This document shows, in pieces, positions 3,611 to 31,527 of a DNA stretch of 64,000 nt. Source of the DNA: a virus. Below the pieces are notes generated by a model. It was not told the origin of the DNA, made no database searches, and saw only the letters and a list, made by a program, of their open reading frames with translations. The position numbers and the translations under genes are program-made. Position 1 is the first letter of the stretch, and each line of letters begins with the position of its first letter. The stretch lies in IMG/VR virus record IMGVR_UViG_3300003322_000628, positions 1 to 64,000 of that record. One strand, written 5' to 3'.

Positions 3611-3686
3611 GGGCGTGTAGCTCAAAGGTTAGAGCAGGCGACTCATAATCGCTTGGTTGCAGGTTCGACCCCTGCCGCGCCCACCA
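3611..3686 (+). tRNA. tRNA with CAT anticodon (Met or Ile2)
   Basis: Acceptor GGGCGTG/CGCGCCC, anticodon loop CTCATAA, T loop TTCGACC, encoded CCA. Position 1 pairs (G-C), which argues against an initiator tRNA. It could be elongator tRNA-Met or a lysidine-modified tRNA-Ile reading ATA; sequence alone does not separate these here. Confidence 0.9.
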
Positions 3687-6431: not shown

Positions 6432-6838
6432 TGTTCTACTGGAAGGAAGGCAAACGATGGAAAAGCTTTGACTTCAGTTGTCTCGGCAGCATTCCTTCTT
6501 GCTGCGGAATTGAAGATGTTGGTGAATTTTATGCTCAAACGTGGAGCACGGAAAAGAAAGCCGTGGGCGACGACTGGATCGACCGAGAAAAAATTACTAA
6601 GAGAGCCCTATTCAAAGAGCTTGTAAAGGAATGCTTGCGTAGGGGCTCTATCATCATGGCAGATAGGAAAGGCGGGGATGCGGATAGAGTTTTATTTCCT
6701 CTCGCGCCTAAGAGAGCTTTCTTTCTTACGGATGCCGGAGTAAAGTGGAAATGCAAAGCTCATTTGTCCGACTACTACCACAATAGCAACAGTGGCGCTC
6801 GCATCCGGCATTGCATTGTGACGATGGAGAAAGCATGA
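6431..6838 (+). CDS. Hypothetical protein
   Basis: 135 residues; ATG 6431 overlaps the previous TGA (a TTG at 6428 is also in frame). ALFKELVKECLRRGSII, FPLAPK and NSNSGARIRHCIVTM align by eye with the two preceding proteins, so this may be a tandem duplicated family. The end overlaps the ATP-grasp gene by 4 bp. Confidence 0.55.
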   Translation: MFYWKEGKRWKSFDFSCLGSIPSCCGIEDVGEFYAQTWSTEKKAVGDDWIDREKITKRALFKELVKECLRRGSIIMADRKGGDADRVLFPLAPKRAFFLTDAGVKWKCKAHLSDYYHNSNSGARIRHCIVTMEKA

Positions 6839-7638
6839 GAGTTACAATCGTAACGAACGGCCCTAGCAATAGCGCTCGCAATCTGCAGGCGGCCTTGCGC
6901 TTGCGAGGAGGGGAAGCTTCACGTGCACGGCCAACGTCGCGCCTGTCTTGCCGCGGCACTCGATATGTAATAAACCTCGGAGTATCGGCCGCGCTAGGTT
7001 TTCAGCAGAGGCGTTTGCTAGTTAGCAACTCACAAGAGGGAGTACGCAACTGCCAAGATAAGCGCCTTACGTTCGATGCTCTTCGTAGAGCCAGCGTATC
7101 TTCGCTGGAGTGGGGGGAAACGCAAGAAGGGGCTGTTGCGACGTGGCTAGAGCGCGACGGTAAAGTTGTTGTGCGTCACACAGCGACAGGCCACAGCGGA
7201 GCAGGAATTCAAATCGTGCGTAAAGGAGAGCAGATTCCAGTTGCGCCTTTATATACGCGCTACTTCAAGAAGCAGGCGGAATACCGCGTGCATGTAGCGT
7301 TTGGTAATGTTATTCTTATCCAGCAAAAGAGGAAGCGAAATGGTGTTGAGCAAGAAAATGAACAATCTTTGGTACGCACTCATGCAAATGGATGGGTGTT
7401 CTCTACACAGGCTCTCTCTTGTAACGAGCGTGGCTATCGTGACAATCTCTGTGCTCTTGGTATTGCCGCTGCTAATGCGATAAGGGCTGCACATTGCGCT
7501 GTAGATATTCTCGTAAGCCACGAGAACGGAAACAACATGGTGGTGTGCGAAATCAATTCCGCACCAGCGCTGGAAGCCAATAGCACGCTAGCTGCATACA
7601 CAGATGCATTCATTAACGAAATGAGGAAATACGCGTGA
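6835..7638 (+). CDS. ATP-grasp ligase (RimK-like), start of amide-bond module
   Basis: 267 residues, ATG overlapping the previous stop (ATGA). ATP-grasp enzymes activate a carboxylate with ATP and join it to an amine or thiol. A glycine-rich segment (RHTATGHSGAGIQIV), a basic strand (YRVHVAFGNVILIQQKRKR) and a metal-binding end (AVDILV...VVCEINSAPAL) fit the nucleotide-binding loop, the adenine-contact strand and the D...E-x-N magnesium ligands. The first 85 residues form the smaller N-terminal lobe. Four further amide-chemistry genes lie in the next 6 kb, so it probably makes or extends a peptide-like product with them. Substrate unknown. Confidence 0.75.
   Translation: MRVTIVTNGPSNSARNLQAALRLRGGEASRARPTSRLSCRGTRYVINLGVSAALGFQQRRLLVSNSQEGVRNCQDKRLTFDALRRASVSSLEWGETQEGAVATWLERDGKVVVRHTATGHSGAGIQIVRKGEQIPVAPLYTRYFKKQAEYRVHVAFGNVILIQQKRKRNGVEQENEQSLVRTHANGWVFSTQALSCNERGYRDNLCALGIAAANAIRAAHCAVDILVSHENGNNMVVCEINSAPALEANSTLAAYTDAFINEMRKYA
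7015..7028. repeat. TTGCTA-GT-TAGCAA palindrome in coding
   Basis: Perfect copy inside the ATP-grasp gene, read in frame as Leu-Leu-Val-Ser-Asn. Confidence 0.9.
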
Positions 7639-7919: not shown

Positions 7920-8362
7920 TGGAGCCCCTGATTGTTGTATTCCAGTACACAGCCAATGGCGTTAAGGTTGCGGAATGGGCGTGGCTTAAGAAAAAGAAAG
8001 ATGCTATTCCTGTAGCTAGAAGTAAGAGGCCAGAAGGCTCTGCACTGCAGGCTGTGTGGACATGCGCGTGGCGCAGTGCTCCTTCGCATTACGAGCTGGC
8101 GTACGGCTATGTTACTGAGGAAAATCAGCGAGGACCCTTCAAGGACATTGCGGCTAGCATCCGAGACAAACATCTGCGCAAGCCCAAGGACAACAAATGG
8201 ACTAGAGCTGCTAAGAAAATCCTAGCCGATGCAATAGCTCCCGCTTCAACGCAGCTGGTTATTCCTCGGGAGCCGCCTAAGGAAGCTCCCAAGCCAAAAC
8301 CCAAAGCCAAGCTTTGGAATCCCTATTACATTTACGAGGCCCAGAAACGTGCAGCTCATTAA
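7919..8362 (+). CDS. Hypothetical protein with Pro/Lys-rich linker
   Basis: 147 residues; the ATG shares a base with the previous stop (TGATG). The N-terminal 100 residues are ordered-looking; residues about 120-135 are a PKEAPKPKPKAK linker. It overlaps the COOH-NH2 ligase start by 14 bp, so it may be made in step with that enzyme. Confidence 0.55.
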   Translation: MEPLIVVFQYTANGVKVAEWAWLKKKKDAIPVARSKRPEGSALQAVWTCAWRSAPSHYELAYGYVTEENQRGPFKDIAASIRDKHLRKPKDNKWTRAAKKILADAIAPASTQLVIPREPPKEAPKPKPKAKLWNPYYIYEAQKRAAH

Positions 8363-9212
8363 GGTTGGTGCTGATCCGGAAGTTGGCATCTACAATACCG
8401 CCAAAGGCATTGTCGTCCCGGGATGCGGTAAGATTCCCGGCACCAAAGCCAAGCCACACCCCGTTCCAAACTCAAAGATCGGTCTCAAGATTCAGGAGGA
8501 CGGAGTTAGTTTGGAGTACAACTTCGATCCTGTTCCAGTGAAGGACTTCTATCGGCGCGCCTTGGACGCTGCAGCTGGCGTGCGGAAAATGGTTAGTGCG
8601 CTATTCGGCCCAGACTATGACTGGTGGATTGGTGATGGCCACACGTTCGACATGAAGCAGCTGCTTCCACATCCGCAAGCTATGTGCTTCGGGTGCGACC
8701 CAGACTATCTCGCGCATCGCCGAGGGGAAATGAGGATGCCTCTGGACGCTAACGATTTGGGAGGCAATCGCTTCTTCGCGGGCCACATCCACATCGGATA
8801 CGACAGGAAGTCGTGCCTCGTTCCGGACTGGGCGATTGTGCAGGGCATGGAAGCTCTGGCGTACACGCATCTGGCCTGCCTTGGATATGACGACCAGCCT
8901 AACAGGCGCAAGTATTACGGCATTCCGGGCCTGTTCCGGCCCAAGAGCTATGGCTTGGAATACCGGACACCCTCCAACTTCTGGGTGCATCAGCCACAGC
9001 ATGTGTCTACGCTGATTTCCACGGCAGAGCACATCATCAACAAGCCTGCAAAGTTTCAGGAAATCTACCGACGCATCAACTTCGATGATGTGGTGGGGTA
9101 TATCAACGATCCGCGCAAGCGAGGTACGGAAGTGTTTGTTGACAGCATGGGCGATTTGCGAGACGAGCTTTTTGCGGCTCCTGAGGAGAACATCGATGGT
9201 GAGGAAAAGTAA
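8349..9212 (+). CDS. COOH-NH2 ligase type 2 (phiEco32-like)
   Basis: 287 residues from GTG 8349. VGADPE at the N-terminus, a PGTKAKPHPV segment, then QEDGVSLEYNFDPVPV and GHIHIGY match the family described in phiEco32-like phages, a glutamine-synthetase-like fold that links a carboxylate to an amine with ATP. Acidic and His residues in those motifs are the likely metal/ATP ligands. It overlaps its upstream neighbour and abuts the next gene (TAATG). Iyer, Aravind and colleagues proposed peptide or cell-surface modification for this family; the substrate is unproven. Confidence 0.82.
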   Translation: MQLIKVGADPEVGIYNTAKGIVVPGCGKIPGTKAKPHPVPNSKIGLKIQEDGVSLEYNFDPVPVKDFYRRALDAAAGVRKMVSALFGPDYDWWIGDGHTFDMKQLLPHPQAMCFGCDPDYLAHRRGEMRMPLDANDLGGNRFFAGHIHIGYDRKSCLVPDWAIVQGMEALAYTHLACLGYDDQPNRRKYYGIPGLFRPKSYGLEYRTPSNFWVHQPQHVSTLISTAEHIINKPAKFQEIYRRINFDDVVGYINDPRKRGTEVFVDSMGDLRDELFAAPEENIDGEEK

Positions 9213-9829
9213 TGCACCACTACAGTAGGGATGATTTTATTTCGTACTATGGAGGCAGCTTCCTGCTCAGTCCATCCACCAATAAGGTGGTAAGAGTTTT
9301 GCAGGGCGATCCAGCCAGAGAGTCCCACGTCATTCTGACGGATAAGAGCAGCGTCCATCTGCGAGACTTGGACTGGAAGCATGTCAAGACTCCGCAGCTC
9401 GGCTTTCGTACGCTGGAGAATGGACGCCTGCTCTACTACGTACAGAGGCGTGCGGTGCGCGAGCGCCAGAAGGGCGTAACCCCTGTGGCCATTGTCATTG
9501 ACATTCCGGGCATCATGACTTCTATTGCTCAGGAGCTTGGCTATTCTCAGGACGTTGCTCGTCTAGCCCAGCTCAATGACAAGCTGGCAGAGGCTATTTT
9601 CCATCCCGAGTTTGTGTCGATGGAAGATGCGCTGGAATTGCTAGCTAGCAAACGACATGCTGTAGCATTCGCGCTGTCTCCTGATTGGGCAATCACGCTC
9701 GGCCTGCATTCGGACAAGCGCTATCTGCTGCATTACAAGAATCGTCGAGCAGGTCATTCCGTCGATGGGAAGAAGTGGGCATTCAATGACAGCGATGTAG
9801 AATACATCTTCAATAGGAGCAAGCTATGA
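9212..9829 (+). CDS. Hypothetical protein within amidoligase cluster
   Basis: 205 residues; ATG overlaps the ligase stop. I recognise no domain. The C-terminal third (KRHAVAFALSPDWAITLGLHSDKRYLL by position 145-170) looks like alternating strands. Its place between the two ligases and the cyclotransferase suggests a partner or substrate role, which is inference from position only. The palindrome at 9638-9651 lies inside, read as LLASK. Confidence 0.5.
   Translation: MHHYSRDDFISYYGGSFLLSPSTNKVVRVLQGDPARESHVILTDKSSVHLRDLDWKHVKTPQLGFRTLENGRLLYYVQRRAVRERQKGVTPVAIVIDIPGIMTSIAQELGYSQDVARLAQLNDKLAEAIFHPEFVSMEDALELLASKRHAVAFALSPDWAITLGLHSDKRYLLHYKNRRAGHSVDGKKWAFNDSDVEYIFNRSKL
9638..9651. repeat. TTGCTA-GC-TAGCAA palindrome in coding
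   Basis: Perfect copy inside the hypothetical gene 9212-9829, in frame as Leu-Leu-Ala-Ser-Lys. Confidence 0.9.
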
Positions 9830-10182
9830 TGAACCGAGTAGTGGTTTACGGAAGCCTAAAGCGCGGCTTTGGTAACCACCGATTGCTAGAGACAGCTGAG
9901 TTTGTTGGGCCGTGCGTGTTCCGAGGCACAATGTACAGTCTCGGCGGATTCCCTGCTGTGTCTCTACACGGGGACACGCAGATTGTTGGAGAGCTGTATG
10001 ATGTAGATGACGCTACGCTCTCTCGTCTTGATGGCCTCGAAGGATTCCGTGGTCATGGAGAACGCAATTGGTATGAGCGAGAGAAGATTGAAACAAACAA
10101 GGGGCCTGCGTGGGTGTACACGCAGGACGCCGACCAGCAGCTTTCGTCCTATCCGATTGTCAAGAGTGGGGTGTGGGAGTGA
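9826..10182 (+). CDS. Gamma-glutamylcyclotransferase-like protein (AIG2/GGCT fold)
   Basis: 118 residues; ATG 9826 follows AGGAG and overlaps the previous stop. VVYGSLKRGFGNH is the family's YGSLxxG substrate-binding loop; GELYDVDDATLSRLDGLEG is the conserved second half with a catalytic-type Glu. These enzymes cleave gamma-glutamyl amine links by cyclising to 5-oxoproline, or act as gamma-glutamylamine cyclotransferases. Next to two amide ligases it could edit, trim or recycle a gamma-glutamyl-linked product. Confidence 0.82.
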   Translation: MMNRVVVYGSLKRGFGNHRLLETAEFVGPCVFRGTMYSLGGFPAVSLHGDTQIVGELYDVDDATLSRLDGLEGFRGHGERNWYEREKIETNKGPAWVYTQDADQQLSSYPIVKSGVWE

Positions 10183-10553: not shown

Positions 10554-11666
10554 ATGGGACAGAACGTAGGTCAGCGATACAAGCGTACAGTCCATCGCCA
10601 GCCAGAGGTTGACGACAGCCTACCCGTGCCCTACGCCAAGGTGGGCATCGAGATCGAAGTGGAGGGCTATCGCACCAAGGAAGATTTGGGTGGATGGCTA
10701 AACCACTGGTCAATTAAGGAAGACCACAGCCTTCGCAATAATGGCATGGAGTTTGTCACAGATCAGGGCATGGTTGGGAAGGATATCAAGCTATGCATTG
10801 AGAACATCTGCAAGCTGTTCAGGCACAACAAATACAGCGAGGGCTATCCGCGCGCCGGCATTCACTTCCACATCGACGTAACGGACTTGAACGAGCACAG
10901 CAACACGCAGCTGCTCAATCTGGTGCTTGCGTATATGCTGTTTGAGAAGGCCGTCTTTCGCTTTGCTGGCGAGTGGCGAGAGGCTTGCGGATTTTGCGAT
11001 CCTCTTCTGCTTAGCCAGCGAGACTTCCCGAACATCAGCGCCTTGCTGTACGACTGGAATAACCTGTACCCACTGAGTGAGGGCAGGTTTAGCAAGTATC
11101 AGGCCATTAACTTTCTACCGCTCGCTCGTTTTGGCACGCTTGAATTTCGCCAGCTCCCCACCACGTTTGATGCACAGCGTATCATCGACTGGCTGTGCAT
11201 TTGCCTGAGCTTCAAGCAGTATGCCGTCAACTATGACGTTGATCCTGTTGATTACATGGACAAATATGGTGTTGATGGCCTTGTCAATGCTGTGTTTGGC
11301 AAGTGGCGCAGCGCTGTGGACAAATATATCGTAGACGCGGAGATTAAAGCTGCTGCTCTGGAAGTTAGAAGCCTGCGTATTGGCCGATCTTTCTCTGGCA
11401 AGAAAGCAGTTAAGCCGGTGTTGGATAGCTGGGACAAGCCAGACAATCCTTTGCTACTTAGCAAGATAGAACAGGCACCAAAAAGGCCGGCCGCTAAAAA
11501 AATAGACGCGGCTACACTAGAAGCCGTAGCTTTAGACCGGCAGCACGCTGCCGACGCTGCGCTGTTCGGCGCGGGCAGAGAAGCAGAGTGGCTGCGCTTG
11601 AACGAGCAGTTGGCGCAACAGCTACGCGGCGTGCCCGACCTCATCCCGCCGCAACGTCGTCGTTAA
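10554..11666 (+). CDS. Amidoligase (glutamine-synthetase-like fold)
   Basis: 370 residues, ATG directly after the previous stop with GAGGAGG upstream. VGIEIEVEG and the RAGIHFHIDV strand are the family's metal-binding motifs (E-x-E and H-x-H); ARFGTLEFRQLPTT is the late E-x-R segment. Amidoligases form amide or isopeptide bonds using ATP. The last 90 residues are Ala-rich and probably flexible. It carries a palindrome at 11451-11464 in frame (LLLSK). It acts most likely with the glutamine amidotransferase that follows. Confidence 0.82.
   Translation: MGQNVGQRYKRTVHRQPEVDDSLPVPYAKVGIEIEVEGYRTKEDLGGWLNHWSIKEDHSLRNNGMEFVTDQGMVGKDIKLCIENICKLFRHNKYSEGYPRAGIHFHIDVTDLNEHSNTQLLNLVLAYMLFEKAVFRFAGEWREACGFCDPLLLSQRDFPNISALLYDWNNLYPLSEGRFSKYQAINFLPLARFGTLEFRQLPTTFDAQRIIDWLCICLSFKQYAVNYDVDPVDYMDKYGVDGLVNAVFGKWRSAVDKYIVDAEIKAAALEVRSLRIGRSFSGKKAVKPVLDSWDKPDNPLLLSKIEQAPKRPAAKKIDAATLEAVALDRQHAADAALFGAGREAEWLRLNEQLAQQLRGVPDLIPPQRRR
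11451..11464. repeat. TTGCTA-CT-TAGCAA palindrome in coding
   Basis: Perfect copy inside the amidoligase gene, in frame as Leu-Leu-Leu-Ser-Lys. Confidence 0.9.
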
Positions 11667-11688
11667 TTCAATTTAAGGAGAACGTGCC

Positions 11689-13089
11689 ATTTGTGGTATT
11701 CTTGGTGTCATTAACGGCGAACAGTCGTGGAAGAAGGGCCTCGGTGAGCTGAATGCTTACATGAAGCAGGGCTGCATCTCAGGTATTTTCCGAGGAGAGG
11801 ACAGCACCGGGCTGGTTCAGATCAGCAGGAAGTTTGATTCTCGTGTTCTGAAGATGCCCTTTGACGGATACATCTTCGCTCAGCAGAAGAAGGTAAAGCA
11901 GGCATTCGATAATGTGGATAGCAATTTCGCTACTATTGTCCATCACCGCGCTGCTACTCATGGCACAGTCAGCATGGACAATTGCCATCCCTTCGAGCAC
12001 AAGGCAGGCGAACGTTACGTAGTGGGAGTGCATAACGGCACCATCCACACGTTCAGTAGGAACGAAGATGGCAAGAGCTTTGATGTAGATAGCGACTGGC
12101 TCTACCATCGCATCGCTCGCGACGGCGCTATGAAGGCGCTCGGTAGCCTGAGTGGGGGCTCTTACGCCCTTGTCTGGGCGGAGAAGCCAAGCGATAAGAT
12201 TTTCATGGCCGTTAATGAGCAGCGGCCGCTGGCGTTTGCTTTCGTCAGAGGGCTCAATGCTATGGTATTGGCTAGCGAGCACGCCCATCTGTGGTATTTG
12301 GCGTGGCGGAATGGTATCGAAGTGGAACAGATTATGTATCCAGCCGTAGACACCATCTACGAATTCGATCCCAAGGGGGATTTGCGCGACTATAAAACCC
12401 ACGACATTGAGAAGATAAAGTATAAGCCACCAGCCTACTCTGCTCCTTCTTATTCATCTGCGCCACCTGTCAATCAGGTGGTGAGGCAGCACGGTGTTAA
12501 TGAAATTAGAGATGTGTATGGTGCAGCTTCCAACTTGAATGAGATGGGGTTCAATCCCGGCGAGGAGTTGGAGTTTGTCCTTCACCGCAAGCTCGCGATG
12601 GCAAATAGAGCGACAGAAACATACGCGCTGTTTGGAGAAGTGATTAATCCGAGGGCTGTTGTAGAAAAGGCTGTAATCAATGGCGCTACGTCTAATGTCA
12701 TTGAGAACATGACCAAATCCAAGCTTATCATGGTGAAGGCTTTGGGTACGCGAGAAATCACAGATCGAACCACAGGAAAGGTGGTGGACAAATTTGTAAT
12801 TTGCAGCACTCCGTCTTGCGATATCGAGGATGATAGTGGAGAGCAACTTGCTAACGTGGAGGATGAGAATAGCGACCCTTTCGTCATTGGGCCGCGTGGC
12901 AATCCCGTAACTAAGGAAGAATGGGAGCGCCTCACTTCCAGAGGGTGTTCCCATTGCGGCGAGCGATTTCACGTCGAAGAGGCTGGGACTATTGTCTGGA
13001 CTTCTTCTGGGGATAGCCCTGTGTGTGCTCAGTGTATTCAGTGGTGGAACAACCAGTACCCCAACAGCATGAGGGGGATGTTGAATTGA
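11689..13089 (+). CDS. Class II glutamine amidotransferase, AUU start
   Basis: 466 residues. Class II (Ntn-type) glutaminases need Cys as residue 2, exposed when Met is removed. Here CGILGV follows an ATT at 11689, with AAGGAG at 11675-11680 (8-nt spacing); the first ATG (11761) would delete the nucleophile. Other family motifs are present: FRGEDSTG, VHHRAATHG, NCHPF, VGVHNGT. The C-terminus (residues about 420-450) has a C-x2-C...C-x2-C zinc ribbon after a disordered middle. No synthetase domain is fused, so released ammonia may feed the neighbouring ligases. Confidence 0.85.
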   Translation: MCGILGVINGEQSWKKGLGELNAYMKQGCISGIFRGEDSTGLVQISRKFDSRVLKMPFDGYIFAQQKKVKQAFDNVDSNFATIVHHRAATHGTVSMDNCHPFEHKAGERYVVGVHNGTIHTFSRNEDGKSFDVDSDWLYHRIARDGAMKALGSLSGGSYALVWAEKPSDKIFMAVNEQRPLAFAFVRGLNAMVLASEHAHLWYLAWRNGIEVEQIMYPAVDTIYEFDPKGDLRDYKTHDIEKIKYKPPAYSAPSYSSAPPVNQVVRQHGVNEIRDVYGAASNLNEMGFNPGEELEFVLHRKLAMANRATETYALFGEVINPRAVVEKAVINGATSNVIENMTKSKLIMVKALGTREITDRTTGKVVDKFVICSTPSCDIEDDSGEQLANVEDENSDPFVIGPRGNPVTKEEWERLTSRGCSHCGERFHVEEAGTIVWTSSGDSPVCAQCIQWWNNQYPNSMRGMLN

Positions 13090-18986: not shown

Positions 18987-19162
18987 CTTTGGATGTATCT
19001 TATGCTAAAAGCCAAGCACTAGTAATTAGAAGAATAGCGGACAGGCTTACGCGTATTGGAGAGAGTATCAAAAGTCATGGCATAGTAGACTTCGGGCTAC
19101 ATCTAAAGACAGAAGTAGGGTATTTGATGGACGCTTTAGACATGAAAGAAGATGAGAGATAA
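18983..19162 (+). CDS. Small hypothetical protein
   Basis: 59 residues from a GTG overlapping the previous stop. Helical throughout (SQALVIRRIADRLTRIGESI). Its TAA forms part of the TAAGGAG ribosome site of the polymerase gene. Confidence 0.5.
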   Translation: MTLDVSYAKSQALVIRRIADRLTRIGESIKSHGIVDFGLHLKTEVGYLMDALDMKEDER

Positions 19163-19171
19163 GGAGCTGCT

Positions 19172-21037
19172 ATCGACTACGAAAACATAAGCCCAGAAGT
19201 CTACAAGACAGGTTCCTTCGTAGTTGTAGATTTCGAGACCACAATCTTAGAAAAGGGAAGTCCACTAAATCTACAGAACGATTTGGTGCTGGCCTGTTGG
19301 TACACGTCGTGGGATGGGGCCTACCACAGCAAGTTTGGCACTGAGTATGAGCAGCGTGAATTACTCCGCGACATAGCTCAGGCCGACTTTGTAATAGCTC
19401 AGAACGCAAAGTTCGAGCTTGGGTGGCTAGATAGATGTGGACTAGACTTGCATGACGTGCTCGTCTGGGACACCATGCTTGCAGAGTGGGTAGTGGCCGG
19501 CAATCGGCAATTCCCTAAAGACCTCGGCAGCATGCTCAAGAAGAGAAGTCTAGCCGGCAAGGAAGACGTTGTTGGCGGAATGATTAAGCTGGGCATCTGT
19601 CCCTCTAACATTCCCAAAGGACTGCTAAACGCCTACTGTCGTGAAGACGTTAGGGGAACTCTTGAGCTGTTTCGCTGTCAAATACAAGAACTGGAAGAAA
19701 GACAGCAGCTCCATCTTGTCCTTGCTCGGTGCCTCCTCACTCCTGTCCTAGCAGACATTGAGAAGCAGGGTATTGTCCTAGACAAAGATGCCGTGTATGA
19801 AGAATACCACAGAGTAATTCAGGAGAAAGATGACACAGAACGATTGCTGTCAGAGTTTGGACAAATCAACTGGAACAGCAGACAGCAAGTTGCAGAGTTG
19901 CTGTACGACCAGCTCGGATTTGATGAGCTGCGAGACAGAAGAGGTAATGTCATTCGCACAGCTGCAGGCGCTCGTAGCACAAGCCGAGCAACCCTATCTC
20001 AGCTCAGAGGAAAAACAGCAACTCAGCGCGCCTTTCTGGAAGCGTTTGCTAAGCTGGCTCTTCTAAATACAAAAATAAGCAAGACACTTGCGTTCTTCAA
20101 GGAGATATGTGACAACCACGAGTGCAAGTTCCACGGAGCATTTAACCAAGGTAGCACTGGAACTCATCGCCTCAGCAGCTCCGGGAGGAAAATTGAAACT
20201 GACCAAGGAGATTCACTCTCCGCCCAGCTCCAAAATATTCCTAGAGAGTACAAGAAATTCATTCGAGCTAGAGACGAGGGATGGGAAGTTTGTGAGGCTG
20301 ACGGTAGCCAAATTGAATTCCGAGTGGCTGCCGACCTTGGGCATGATGAAGTAGCATATGACGAGATTTGCAGAGATGCTGACATTCATACAGCTACAGC
20401 TACCGTCTTTTTGGAGGACGGCACTCATCCAGATTTCAAAGGACTAGACTTAAAGCAAGCAAGACAGCCCGCTAAGCCTCAGACGTTTAAACCGCTGTAC
20501 GGCGGGAGAGGAAATCATCCTGCAGAAAAAGTGTACTGTGAATTCTTCCAAGACAAATACAAAGGAATCTATAGCACACAAACACAGTGGACGTACGACG
20601 TCTTAAGAGATAAGGAACTACGTACACCGTACGGCCTAATCTTCTACTGGCCTGACACGCAGCTAACTCGCAGTGGATATATCACCAATAGCACGAGCAT
20701 ATTCAACTACCCTATTCAGGGATTTGCTACGGCTGAGATTATCCCCATCGTACTTGTTAGTTTGTGGCGTAAGCTTAGAGGATGGGATGTTCGTATTATC
20801 CTCACAGTGCATGACAGCATTATCTTGGAAGTTGGTCCATCAGTAGACAGGAGACAGCTATACGACTTGATTGCTAGAGCATTCACAGAAGATGTGTACA
20901 AGTTTCTTGAACGTGTGTATGGCTACCGCTTCACTGTGCCGTTAGGTGCGGAGATTAAGATGGGCCCCGTGTGGGGCAGTGGTAAAGGACAGAAGGTTAA
21001 GATGTTTCCAAATGAAGGAGAACTAGTTTGGCAGTAG
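19172..21037 (+). CDS. Family A DNA polymerase with 3'-5' exonuclease, AUC start
   Basis: 621 residues if started at ATC 19172, five bases after TAAGGAG. The frame is closed by TAA at 19160, and the first ATG/GTG/TTG (TTG 19283) falls after the exonuclease motif I VVDFETT (D20, E22), so a near-cognate start is needed for a complete proofreading domain. Exo II is NAKFELGWL (Glu where E. coli Pol I has Asp), exo III YCREDVRGT. Polymerase motifs: A DGSQIEFR, B with K...YGG, C TVHDSIILE (Ser replacing the usual Glu of HDE). It is the phage replicase, downstream of primase and helicase. Confidence 0.88.
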   Translation: MDYENISPEVYKTGSFVVVDFETTILEKGSPLNLQNDLVLACWYTSWDGAYHSKFGTEYEQRELLRDIAQADFVIAQNAKFELGWLDRCGLDLHDVLVWDTMLAEWVVAGNRQFPKDLGSMLKKRSLAGKEDVVGGMIKLGICPSNIPKGLLNAYCREDVRGTLELFRCQIQELEERQQLHLVLARCLLTPVLADIEKQGIVLDKDAVYEEYHRVIQEKDDTERLLSEFGQINWNSRQQVAELLYDQLGFDELRDRRGNVIRTAAGARSTSRATLSQLRGKTATQRAFLEAFAKLALLNTKISKTLAFFKEICDNHECKFHGAFNQGSTGTHRLSSSGRKIETDQGDSLSAQLQNIPREYKKFIRARDEGWEVCEADGSQIEFRVAADLGHDEVAYDEICRDADIHTATATVFLEDGTHPDFKGLDLKQARQPAKPQTFKPLYGGRGNHPAEKVYCEFFQDKYKGIYSTQTQWTYDVLRDKELRTPYGLIFYWPDTQLTRSGYITNSTSIFNYPIQGFATAEIIPIVLVSLWRKLRGWDVRIILTVHDSIILEVGPSVDRRQLYDLIARAFTEDVYKFLERVYGYRFTVPLGAEIKMGPVWGSGKGQKVKMFPNEGELVWQ

Positions 21038-30780: not shown

Positions 30781-31527
30781 ATCCGTATACTGTCTCTAGA
30801 CATTGAAAATAGCTTTCTAGTATCCGGCACTTGGGGCTTGTGGGGACAAAACATTTCCATAGATCAGCTTTTCGATCATGGTAAAGTATTGTGCTTTGCC
30901 GCTAAGTGGATGGACAAAAAGGCTGTCGTATTCAAACGATTCGACGAGCCCAACTTCCTCGAAACAATACATAGCCTTTTAGATGAGGCGGATGTTGTAC
31001 TATCGTACAACGGTAAGCGGCATGATATTCCCATGCTGAATAGGGAATTTCTAAAGGCCGGCCTTACACCTCCAAGTCCATACAAACAGATTGATTTGTT
31101 TGAGACTGTCAAGAAGGCGTTCAAGTTTCCTAGTAACAAGCTACAGCATGTTTCAAAGGAACTTGGTATTGGTGAGAAAGTAGACCATGAAGGATTTGGC
31201 CTTTGGGTCAAATGCCTACAGGGCGATGCAGCATCTTGGGCTGTTATGAAGAAGTATAACATCCAAGACGTAAAGCTACTTGAGAAGCTTTACAATTCGC
31301 TGCAGCCGTGGGTAGCCAACCACCCCAATCACAATCTGTACGGTAGAGTAGGGGTGTGCCCGCATTGTGGCAGTAAGCATGTACAAAGCCGAGGAACATA
31401 CAAGACACAGACAGCCATCTATAAGCGACTGCATTGTCAGGATTGCGGAGCATGGAGCCGTAGCCGGTACACGGAAGTTGAAAAAGAGCTACGCGAAACC
31501 GTATACACAGGAGTTAGCCTATCGTAA
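30781..31527 (+). CDS. DEDD-type exonuclease with C-terminal zinc ribbon, AUC start
   Basis: 248 residues from ATC 30781, which has AAGGA at proper spacing. The frame is closed by TAA at 30775 and the first ATG/GTG/TTG (TTG 30838) would remove exo motif I LSLDIEN (D7, E9). Exo II is SYNGKRHDIPML and exo III YNIQDVKLLEKLY. The C-terminus has a zinc ribbon CPHCGS...CQDCGAWSRSR, which likely binds DNA or RNA. A CTG at 30790 is possible but too far from the ribosome site. Confidence 0.8.
   Translation: MRILSLDIENSFLVSGTWGLWGQNISIDQLFDHGKVLCFAAKWMDKKAVVFKRFDEPNFLETIHSLLDEADVVLSYNGKRHDIPMLNREFLKAGLTPPSPYKQIDLFETVKKAFKFPSNKLQHVSKELGIGEKVDHEGFGLWVKCLQGDAASWAVMKKYNIQDVKLLEKLYNSLQPWVANHPNHNLYGRVGVCPHCGSKHVQSRGTYKTQTAIYKRLHCQDCGAWSRSRYTEVEKELRETVYTGVSLS

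Follow-up and report, generated by a model that had tools for sequence, protein, structure and literature searches.

Recurrent AUU initiation predicted for a phage class II glutamine amidotransferase gene

IF3 destabilizes or represses initiation at non-canonical start codons; infC uses such a codon for autoregulation, and by the same discrimination sigR is held low (PMC5472188). Escherichia coli infC, the gene of IF3, and pcnB are presented in PMC9410913 and PMC5472188 as natural chromosomal examples of an AUU start that limits translation. E. coli is known to have two AUU-started genes (PMC9410913), and the limitation of pcnB by its AUU start is cited in PMC9410913 and PMC13009471. In Staphylococcus aureus, AUU/AUA starts are combined with extended Shine-Dalgarno (SD) sequences, and the starts of cvfC1 (AUU) and ccpN (AUA) are conserved (PMC13009471). 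Streptomyces sigR is a non-IF3 gene with a non-canonical start that was misplaced in public annotation (PMC5472188).

We analyzed a 64,000-nt stretch (the window) of a virus record from IMG/VR (64,258 bases) in which a predicted class II glutamine amidotransferase (GATase) gene would start at the very rare codon AUU. This gene is like infC and pcnB in its start codon, like cvfC1 and ccpN in combining that codon with a strong SD, and like sigR in being a non-IF3 gene of a kind whose start is misplaced in public annotation. Unlike infC and pcnB, which are single cellular genes, it belongs to a family of phage enzymes in which the start has changed many separate times between AUG and AUU/AUC, and in the one phage studied here three genes are affected. 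The autoregulation of infC has no counterpart in the phage amidotransferase, for which it is impossible because the product is not IF3. sigR differs in its GTC start, in being a regulator gene and in having been held low by IF3 in experiments, whereas the phage gene is known from its sequence; cvfC1 and ccpN differ in being cellular genes with starts shown by ribosome profiling, whereas the phage starts are read from DNA. The same enzyme family is found in the amidoligase/glutamine amidotransferase clusters of phiEco32, Zobellviridae and LUZ24-like phages, with amidoligase, COOH-NH2 ligase and GGACT as common neighbours, and in the window amidoligase, COOH-NH2 ligase and cyclotransferase genes also lie beside the amidotransferase gene (Table 1).

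Table 1. Features of the start site, the gene cluster and the two further genes with predicted AUC starts (window coordinates)
Feature	Position	Strand	Remarks
In-frame TAA stop	11674..11676	+	Bars N-terminal extension beyond GGA GAA CGT GCC
Shine-Dalgarno AAGGAG	11675..11680	+	Anti-SD duplex energy -9.2
Predicted AUU start of the class II amidotransferase gene	11689..11691	+	Relatives with ATT/ATC at the same position
Predicted catalytic N-terminal Cys codon	11692..11694	+	Invariant columns, profile alignment and predicted fold
First in-frame ATG	11761..11763	+	Without Shine-Dalgarno; a start there loses the nucleophile
Class II glutamine amidotransferase	11689..13089	+	466 codons; GATase_6 / phrog_4736 / phrog_18128
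Amidoligase	10554..11666	+	Amidoligase_2 / phrog_7469; just upstream of the amidotransferase, same cluster
phiEco32-type COOH-NH2 ligase	8349..9212	+	phrog_3815; same cluster
Gamma-glutamyl cyclotransferase (GGACT)	9826..10182	+	Same cluster
ATP-grasp-like, RimK-type ligase	6811..7638	+	phrog_2599; same cluster
DNA polymerase	19172..21037	+	phrog_17, E 3e-69; predicted AUC start; TAAGGAG 19160-19166, 5-nt spacer
DNA polymerase exonuclease subunit	30781..31527	+	phrog_403; predicted AUC start; TAAGGA 8 nt upstream

Read in frame, the codons around the start are TAA (11674) GGA GAA CGT GCC ATT (11689) TGT (11692) GGT ATT CTT GGT GTC. The initial annotation had proposed that the Cys of CGILGV must be residue 2, that only ATT 11689 places it there, with AAGGAG eight bases upstream, and that ATG 11761, 24 codons downstream, would delete the nucleophile. 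The codon reading bears this out: ATT 11689 was the sole initiation-capable codon between the in-frame stop and TGT 11692, at a spacing of 8 nt from the SD, and neither GTG nor TTG occurred in frame ahead of ATG 11761, for which a scan of window starts found no SD. The site combines two marks of an IF3-discriminated start, namely an SD-preceded start codon from the set AUU, AUC and AUA, and the loss of protein integrity with every canonical in-frame alternative, since TAA 11674 lies on one side and ATG 11761 is past the Cys on the other. The in-frame TAA, with no more than GGA GAA CGT GCC between it and the ATT, rules out a propeptide or an upstream start. The idea that the phage encodes an initiator tRNA matching AUU was also rejected: the only candidate was a tRNA-Met (3611, CAT) without the three initiator G-C pairs, and no tRNA reading AUU/AUC was found in the window. 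This CAT tRNA (3611-3686, +), having no initiator features, may be an elongator Met or an AUA-reading Ile2 tRNA.

Three lines of evidence mark this Cys as the catalytic residue. In an alignment of twelve sequences, whose relatives were 21–27% identical to the window amidotransferase, C2, G3, R35, G36, H85, R87, N116, G117 and D134, among others, were kept. Searched against the PDB, the family profile hit GlmS and PurF (E 8e-17 to 2e-14), with profile position 2 falling on Cys1 of each mature enzyme. An AlphaFold model (overall pLDDT 78, with most of residues 1–240 above 90) opened with a first strand at residues 3–9 and resembled GlmS, PurF and EgtC. The Ntn fold, the conserved Arg, Gly, Asn and Asp residues, and a Cys codon directly after the start, which would be exposed upon removal of Met, identify Cys 2 as the predicted nucleophile of a class II (Ntn) glutamine amidotransferase.

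The initial annotation had also asked for ATT in relatives, and this check was strongly positive, isolated and sequenced phages included. Among the first 12 phage relatives, the codon ahead of the Cys is ATC in Pseudomonas phage K4 and ATT in ECBP2 (phiEco32 group), and the annotated starts of these two are 14 and 10 codons late, respectively. ATT was found in 4/4 phiEco32-like contigs (68–100% protein identity), and ATT/ATC recurred at the same codon in KpnP_VR7901, BUCT695 and many IMG/VR contigs. IMG/VR scans with the single GATase or polymerase protein of the window yielded no close relatives. A wider set of 116 relatives gave ATG 85, ATT 18, ATC 5, TTG 6 and GTG 2, with one search pattern biased toward Met/Ile at residue 1. 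IMG/VR was therefore scanned with an internal motif (NAHPF-x8-HNGT) that is silent on the start. In the 112 loci with an intact N-terminus, the codon before Cys was ATG in 89, ATT in 11, ATC in 4, TTG in 5, GTG in 2 and TAC in 1, so that ATT/ATC made up 15 of the 23 non-ATG codons, an excess over chance; dereplication at 90% (n = 105) left ATG 84, ATT 10, ATC 4, TTG 4, GTG 2 and TAC 1. ATA and CTG starts were not found among the phage GATases sampled. By this count, about 13% (about one in eight) of the phage genes in this family would start at AUU/AUC. Such starts have so far been treated as curiosities, and here they are found in a widespread phage enzyme family.

Public annotations usually misplace these starts. 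The annotated genes of L009, L010, L104, L107, L112 and L116 begin ~10 to 37 codons late and lose the catalytic Cys, and several public records thus show how gene finders limited to ATG, GTG and TTG cut catalytic residues off such proteins. The GenBank record of the phiEco32-like phage SU10 opens its amidotransferase CDS at ATT, the only such case among the GenBank records examined. The SU10 protein has been detected by mass spectrometry (9 peptides, 23.7% coverage; PMC4281155). These peptides are no proof of the ATT start, because the mass of SU10_085 (L294) is 63.8 kDa in that report vs. 76.2 kDa from the ATT-started record. In the part of the literature searched, no description of AUU/AUC initiation was found for the phage amidotransferases.

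A tree of 166 proteins was built with residue 1 omitted. The 27 AUU/AUC rows were scattered over it and required 20 changes, at least 11 of them forced by supported branches, so the family has switched repeatedly between AUG and AUU/AUC; in these change counts gain and loss are indistinguishable. The proteins of K4 (ATC) and PA11 (TTG) are almost identical, but their leaders are unrelated. In diverged pairs of the phiEco32 group, codons 2–31 carried 12–16 synonymous vs. 3–5 non-synonymous codon changes. Purifying selection thus acts on codons 2–31 in the ATT-started genes of this group, as fits translated sequence, and the AUU start is conserved across phiEco32-like phages. An AUU/AUC start of the amidotransferase is a recurrent family trait, and two further genes of the window phage would start in the same way.

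Two readings would dispense with an AUU start in the window. Translation could begin at ATG 11761 and yield an enzyme without its N-terminal Cys and therefore without its nucleophile; this is the first canonical codon in frame, and comparably late starts were chosen in some public annotations of relatives. The missing SD, the invariance of C2, G3 and the R35 region, and the constraint on codons 2–31 in ATT lineages nevertheless make such a start highly improbable. Even less credible is that the ATT is an ATG corrupted during sequencing or assembly. In favour of this, the window comes from a metagenomic virus record, and no near-identical second copy of it was found; against it, ATT/ATC stands at this codon in independent contigs and in the genomes of isolates as well, and the AUU of the window gene is for that reason to be read as neither a sequencing error nor a one-off. 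We conclude that the phage amidotransferase gene almost certainly starts at AUU 11689.

The leaders of AUU/AUC loci had stronger SD sequences than those of AUG loci (mean energy -7.8 vs. -6.3 kcal/mol, P 1e-4), an association that was not significant when only independent supported branches were counted. A perfectly paired stem, 5 bp or longer and ending 12–17 nt before the start, accompanied 12/27 AUU/AUC, 2/129 AUG and 0/10 other starts (P 5e-9), with 1.3/27 AUU/AUC loci expected from shuffled sequences; the stem P values are optimistic because the position window was picked after the loci had been seen. In independent pairs, few in number, the stem went with AUU/AUC by ~6 to 0 (median P 0.03). 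Overlap with the upstream gene is common among AUG starts, 37/129 of which touched its stop vs. 0/27 AUU/AUC starts. The comparison was therefore restricted to leaders in which every frame is closed by a stop, and the stem was then present in 11/15 AUU/AUC vs. 0/19 AUG leaders. Stop-start coupling as the cause of AUU was rejected on the same overlap counts. Stem sequences varied between lineages, no Rfam family was found in the hairpin leaders, and the SD-abutting hairpin is absent from the leader of the window gene.

The cellular control covered 398 genomes of one phylum with the pattern GGAG-N7-9-ATN-TGY-GGN-ATH-GTN-GG, which matched 67 ATG and one ATC. This sole ATC sits in the centre genome, picked for having ATC, and its frame breaks after 116 residues; elsewhere in the 398 bacterial genomes ATT/ATC was found 0 times vs. 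67 ATG. The identical pattern recovered 2 ATT/ATC vs. 8 ATG from the phage sample (Fisher P 0.015 against the cellular 0/67), and the GGAG requirement alone, a looser pattern on the phage side, recovered 12 vs. 22 (P 5e-7). A scan for the ATT/ATC form across 84,980 species returned only about four credible amidotransferases. In L273 and L285 (Salipiger pallidus and a Thermoanaerobaculales MAG), the Cys of an amidotransferase-like frame directly follows ATT/ATC, with no canonical start further 5′; cellular frames of this type are rare.

The window was scanned for genes whose first canonical start has no SD but lies downstream of a near-cognate codon that has one, and two cases had homology support. 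The DNA polymerase (ATC 19172) and its exonuclease subunit (ATC 30781) are predicted also to start at AUC. The first canonical start of the polymerase, TTG 19283, is past the 3′-5′ exonuclease motif VVDFETT, and that of the exonuclease subunit, TTG 30838, is past the catalytic LDIEN motif, so that use of either would delete the motif; the match of the subunit to phrog_403 (E 2e-85) runs from residue 2. The related Stenotrophomonas phage StenR_269 (L307) has an ATG amidotransferase, but its conserved polymerase N-terminus needs an upstream ATT. Near-cognate polymerase starts were also seen in L316 (ATT), L407 and L414 (both ATA), and in all four phages no other start ahead of the exonuclease motif has an SD. 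Near-cognate exonuclease starts were found in L376, L380 and probably L301. A phage-wide link between the start classes of GATase and polymerase is unsupported, with near-cognate polymerase starts in 2/17 phages with an AUU/AUC GATase vs. 1/16 with an AUG GATase. In the window, an ORF without known relatives (239-754, +) has ATC 239 with AAGGAG and is a weak candidate for a further near-cognate start.

It is likely, in our judgement, that this is an AUU-started gene with a strong SD, whose product exposes its Cys and whose IF3-disfavoured codon limits the dose. Ordinary fMet-tRNA, positioned by the strong and well-spaced SD, would translate AUU 11689; deformylase and then methionine aminopeptidase would expose Cys as the N-terminal nucleophile; and discrimination by IF3 against AUU would slow initiation, the codon acting as a dose limiter for the amidotransferase and probably also for the DNA polymerase and exonuclease subunit. 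From these starts we infer a low initiation rate, sensitivity to IF3 and a benefit of low dose, and on balance we favour the view that the AUU start keeps the amidotransferase dose low. Initiation at AUU may instead be devoid of regulatory meaning, little enzyme being needed and drift between AUG and AUU/AUC being tolerated. The frequent switching on the tree, the near identity of the K4 and PA11 proteins, and the lack of the hairpin in many AUU/AUC leaders, that of the window included, would all fit. This reading is possible but the less favoured one, since AUU is kept across phiEco32-like phages, strong SDs and SD-abutting hairpins accompany AUU/AUC, and AUA is absent among the GATases, though AUG-to-AUA is the transition.

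Another alternative is an IF3-responsive control in which product rises as free IF3 falls relative to 30S subunits during infection, the three genes forming a translational regulon. The AUU/AUC starts of three window genes that are early or replication genes, and the control of infC and sigR by IF3 via such codons (PMC5472188), speak for it; the uncoupled start classes of polymerase and GATase across phages speak against it, and we regard it as unlikely. A link to IF3 is a reasonable reading of the literature on infC, pcnB and sigR, but it is similarly doubtful that amidotransferase expression follows IF3 during infection. Still less probable is that AUU/AUC define a phage translational class, in which synthesis of amidotransferase, polymerase and exonuclease would follow the host IF3-to-ribosome balance or a phage factor altering it. 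Limitation of dose by the AUU start stays our preferred reading. One phage with three AUU/AUC genes, its DNA polymerase included, and many separate switches in the family lend these starts a wider interest, and since phiEco32-group coliphages with an ATT start are available as cultures, it can be tested directly whether IF3-sensitive initiation plays a part in infection.

Hairpins of 5–6 bp directly 5′ of the SD (L009, L024, L025, L026, L033, L097, L104, L112, L152 and L010), with differing stem sequences, were almost confined to AUU/AUC-started amidotransferase genes. In L010, L014-L017 and L294, a nearly invariant leader holds the in-frame mini-ORF ATGAAAGGGTTTACCCTTCAGGTGGATTAG (MKGFTLQVD), which ends two codons ahead of the AUU and whose bases also form the hairpin.
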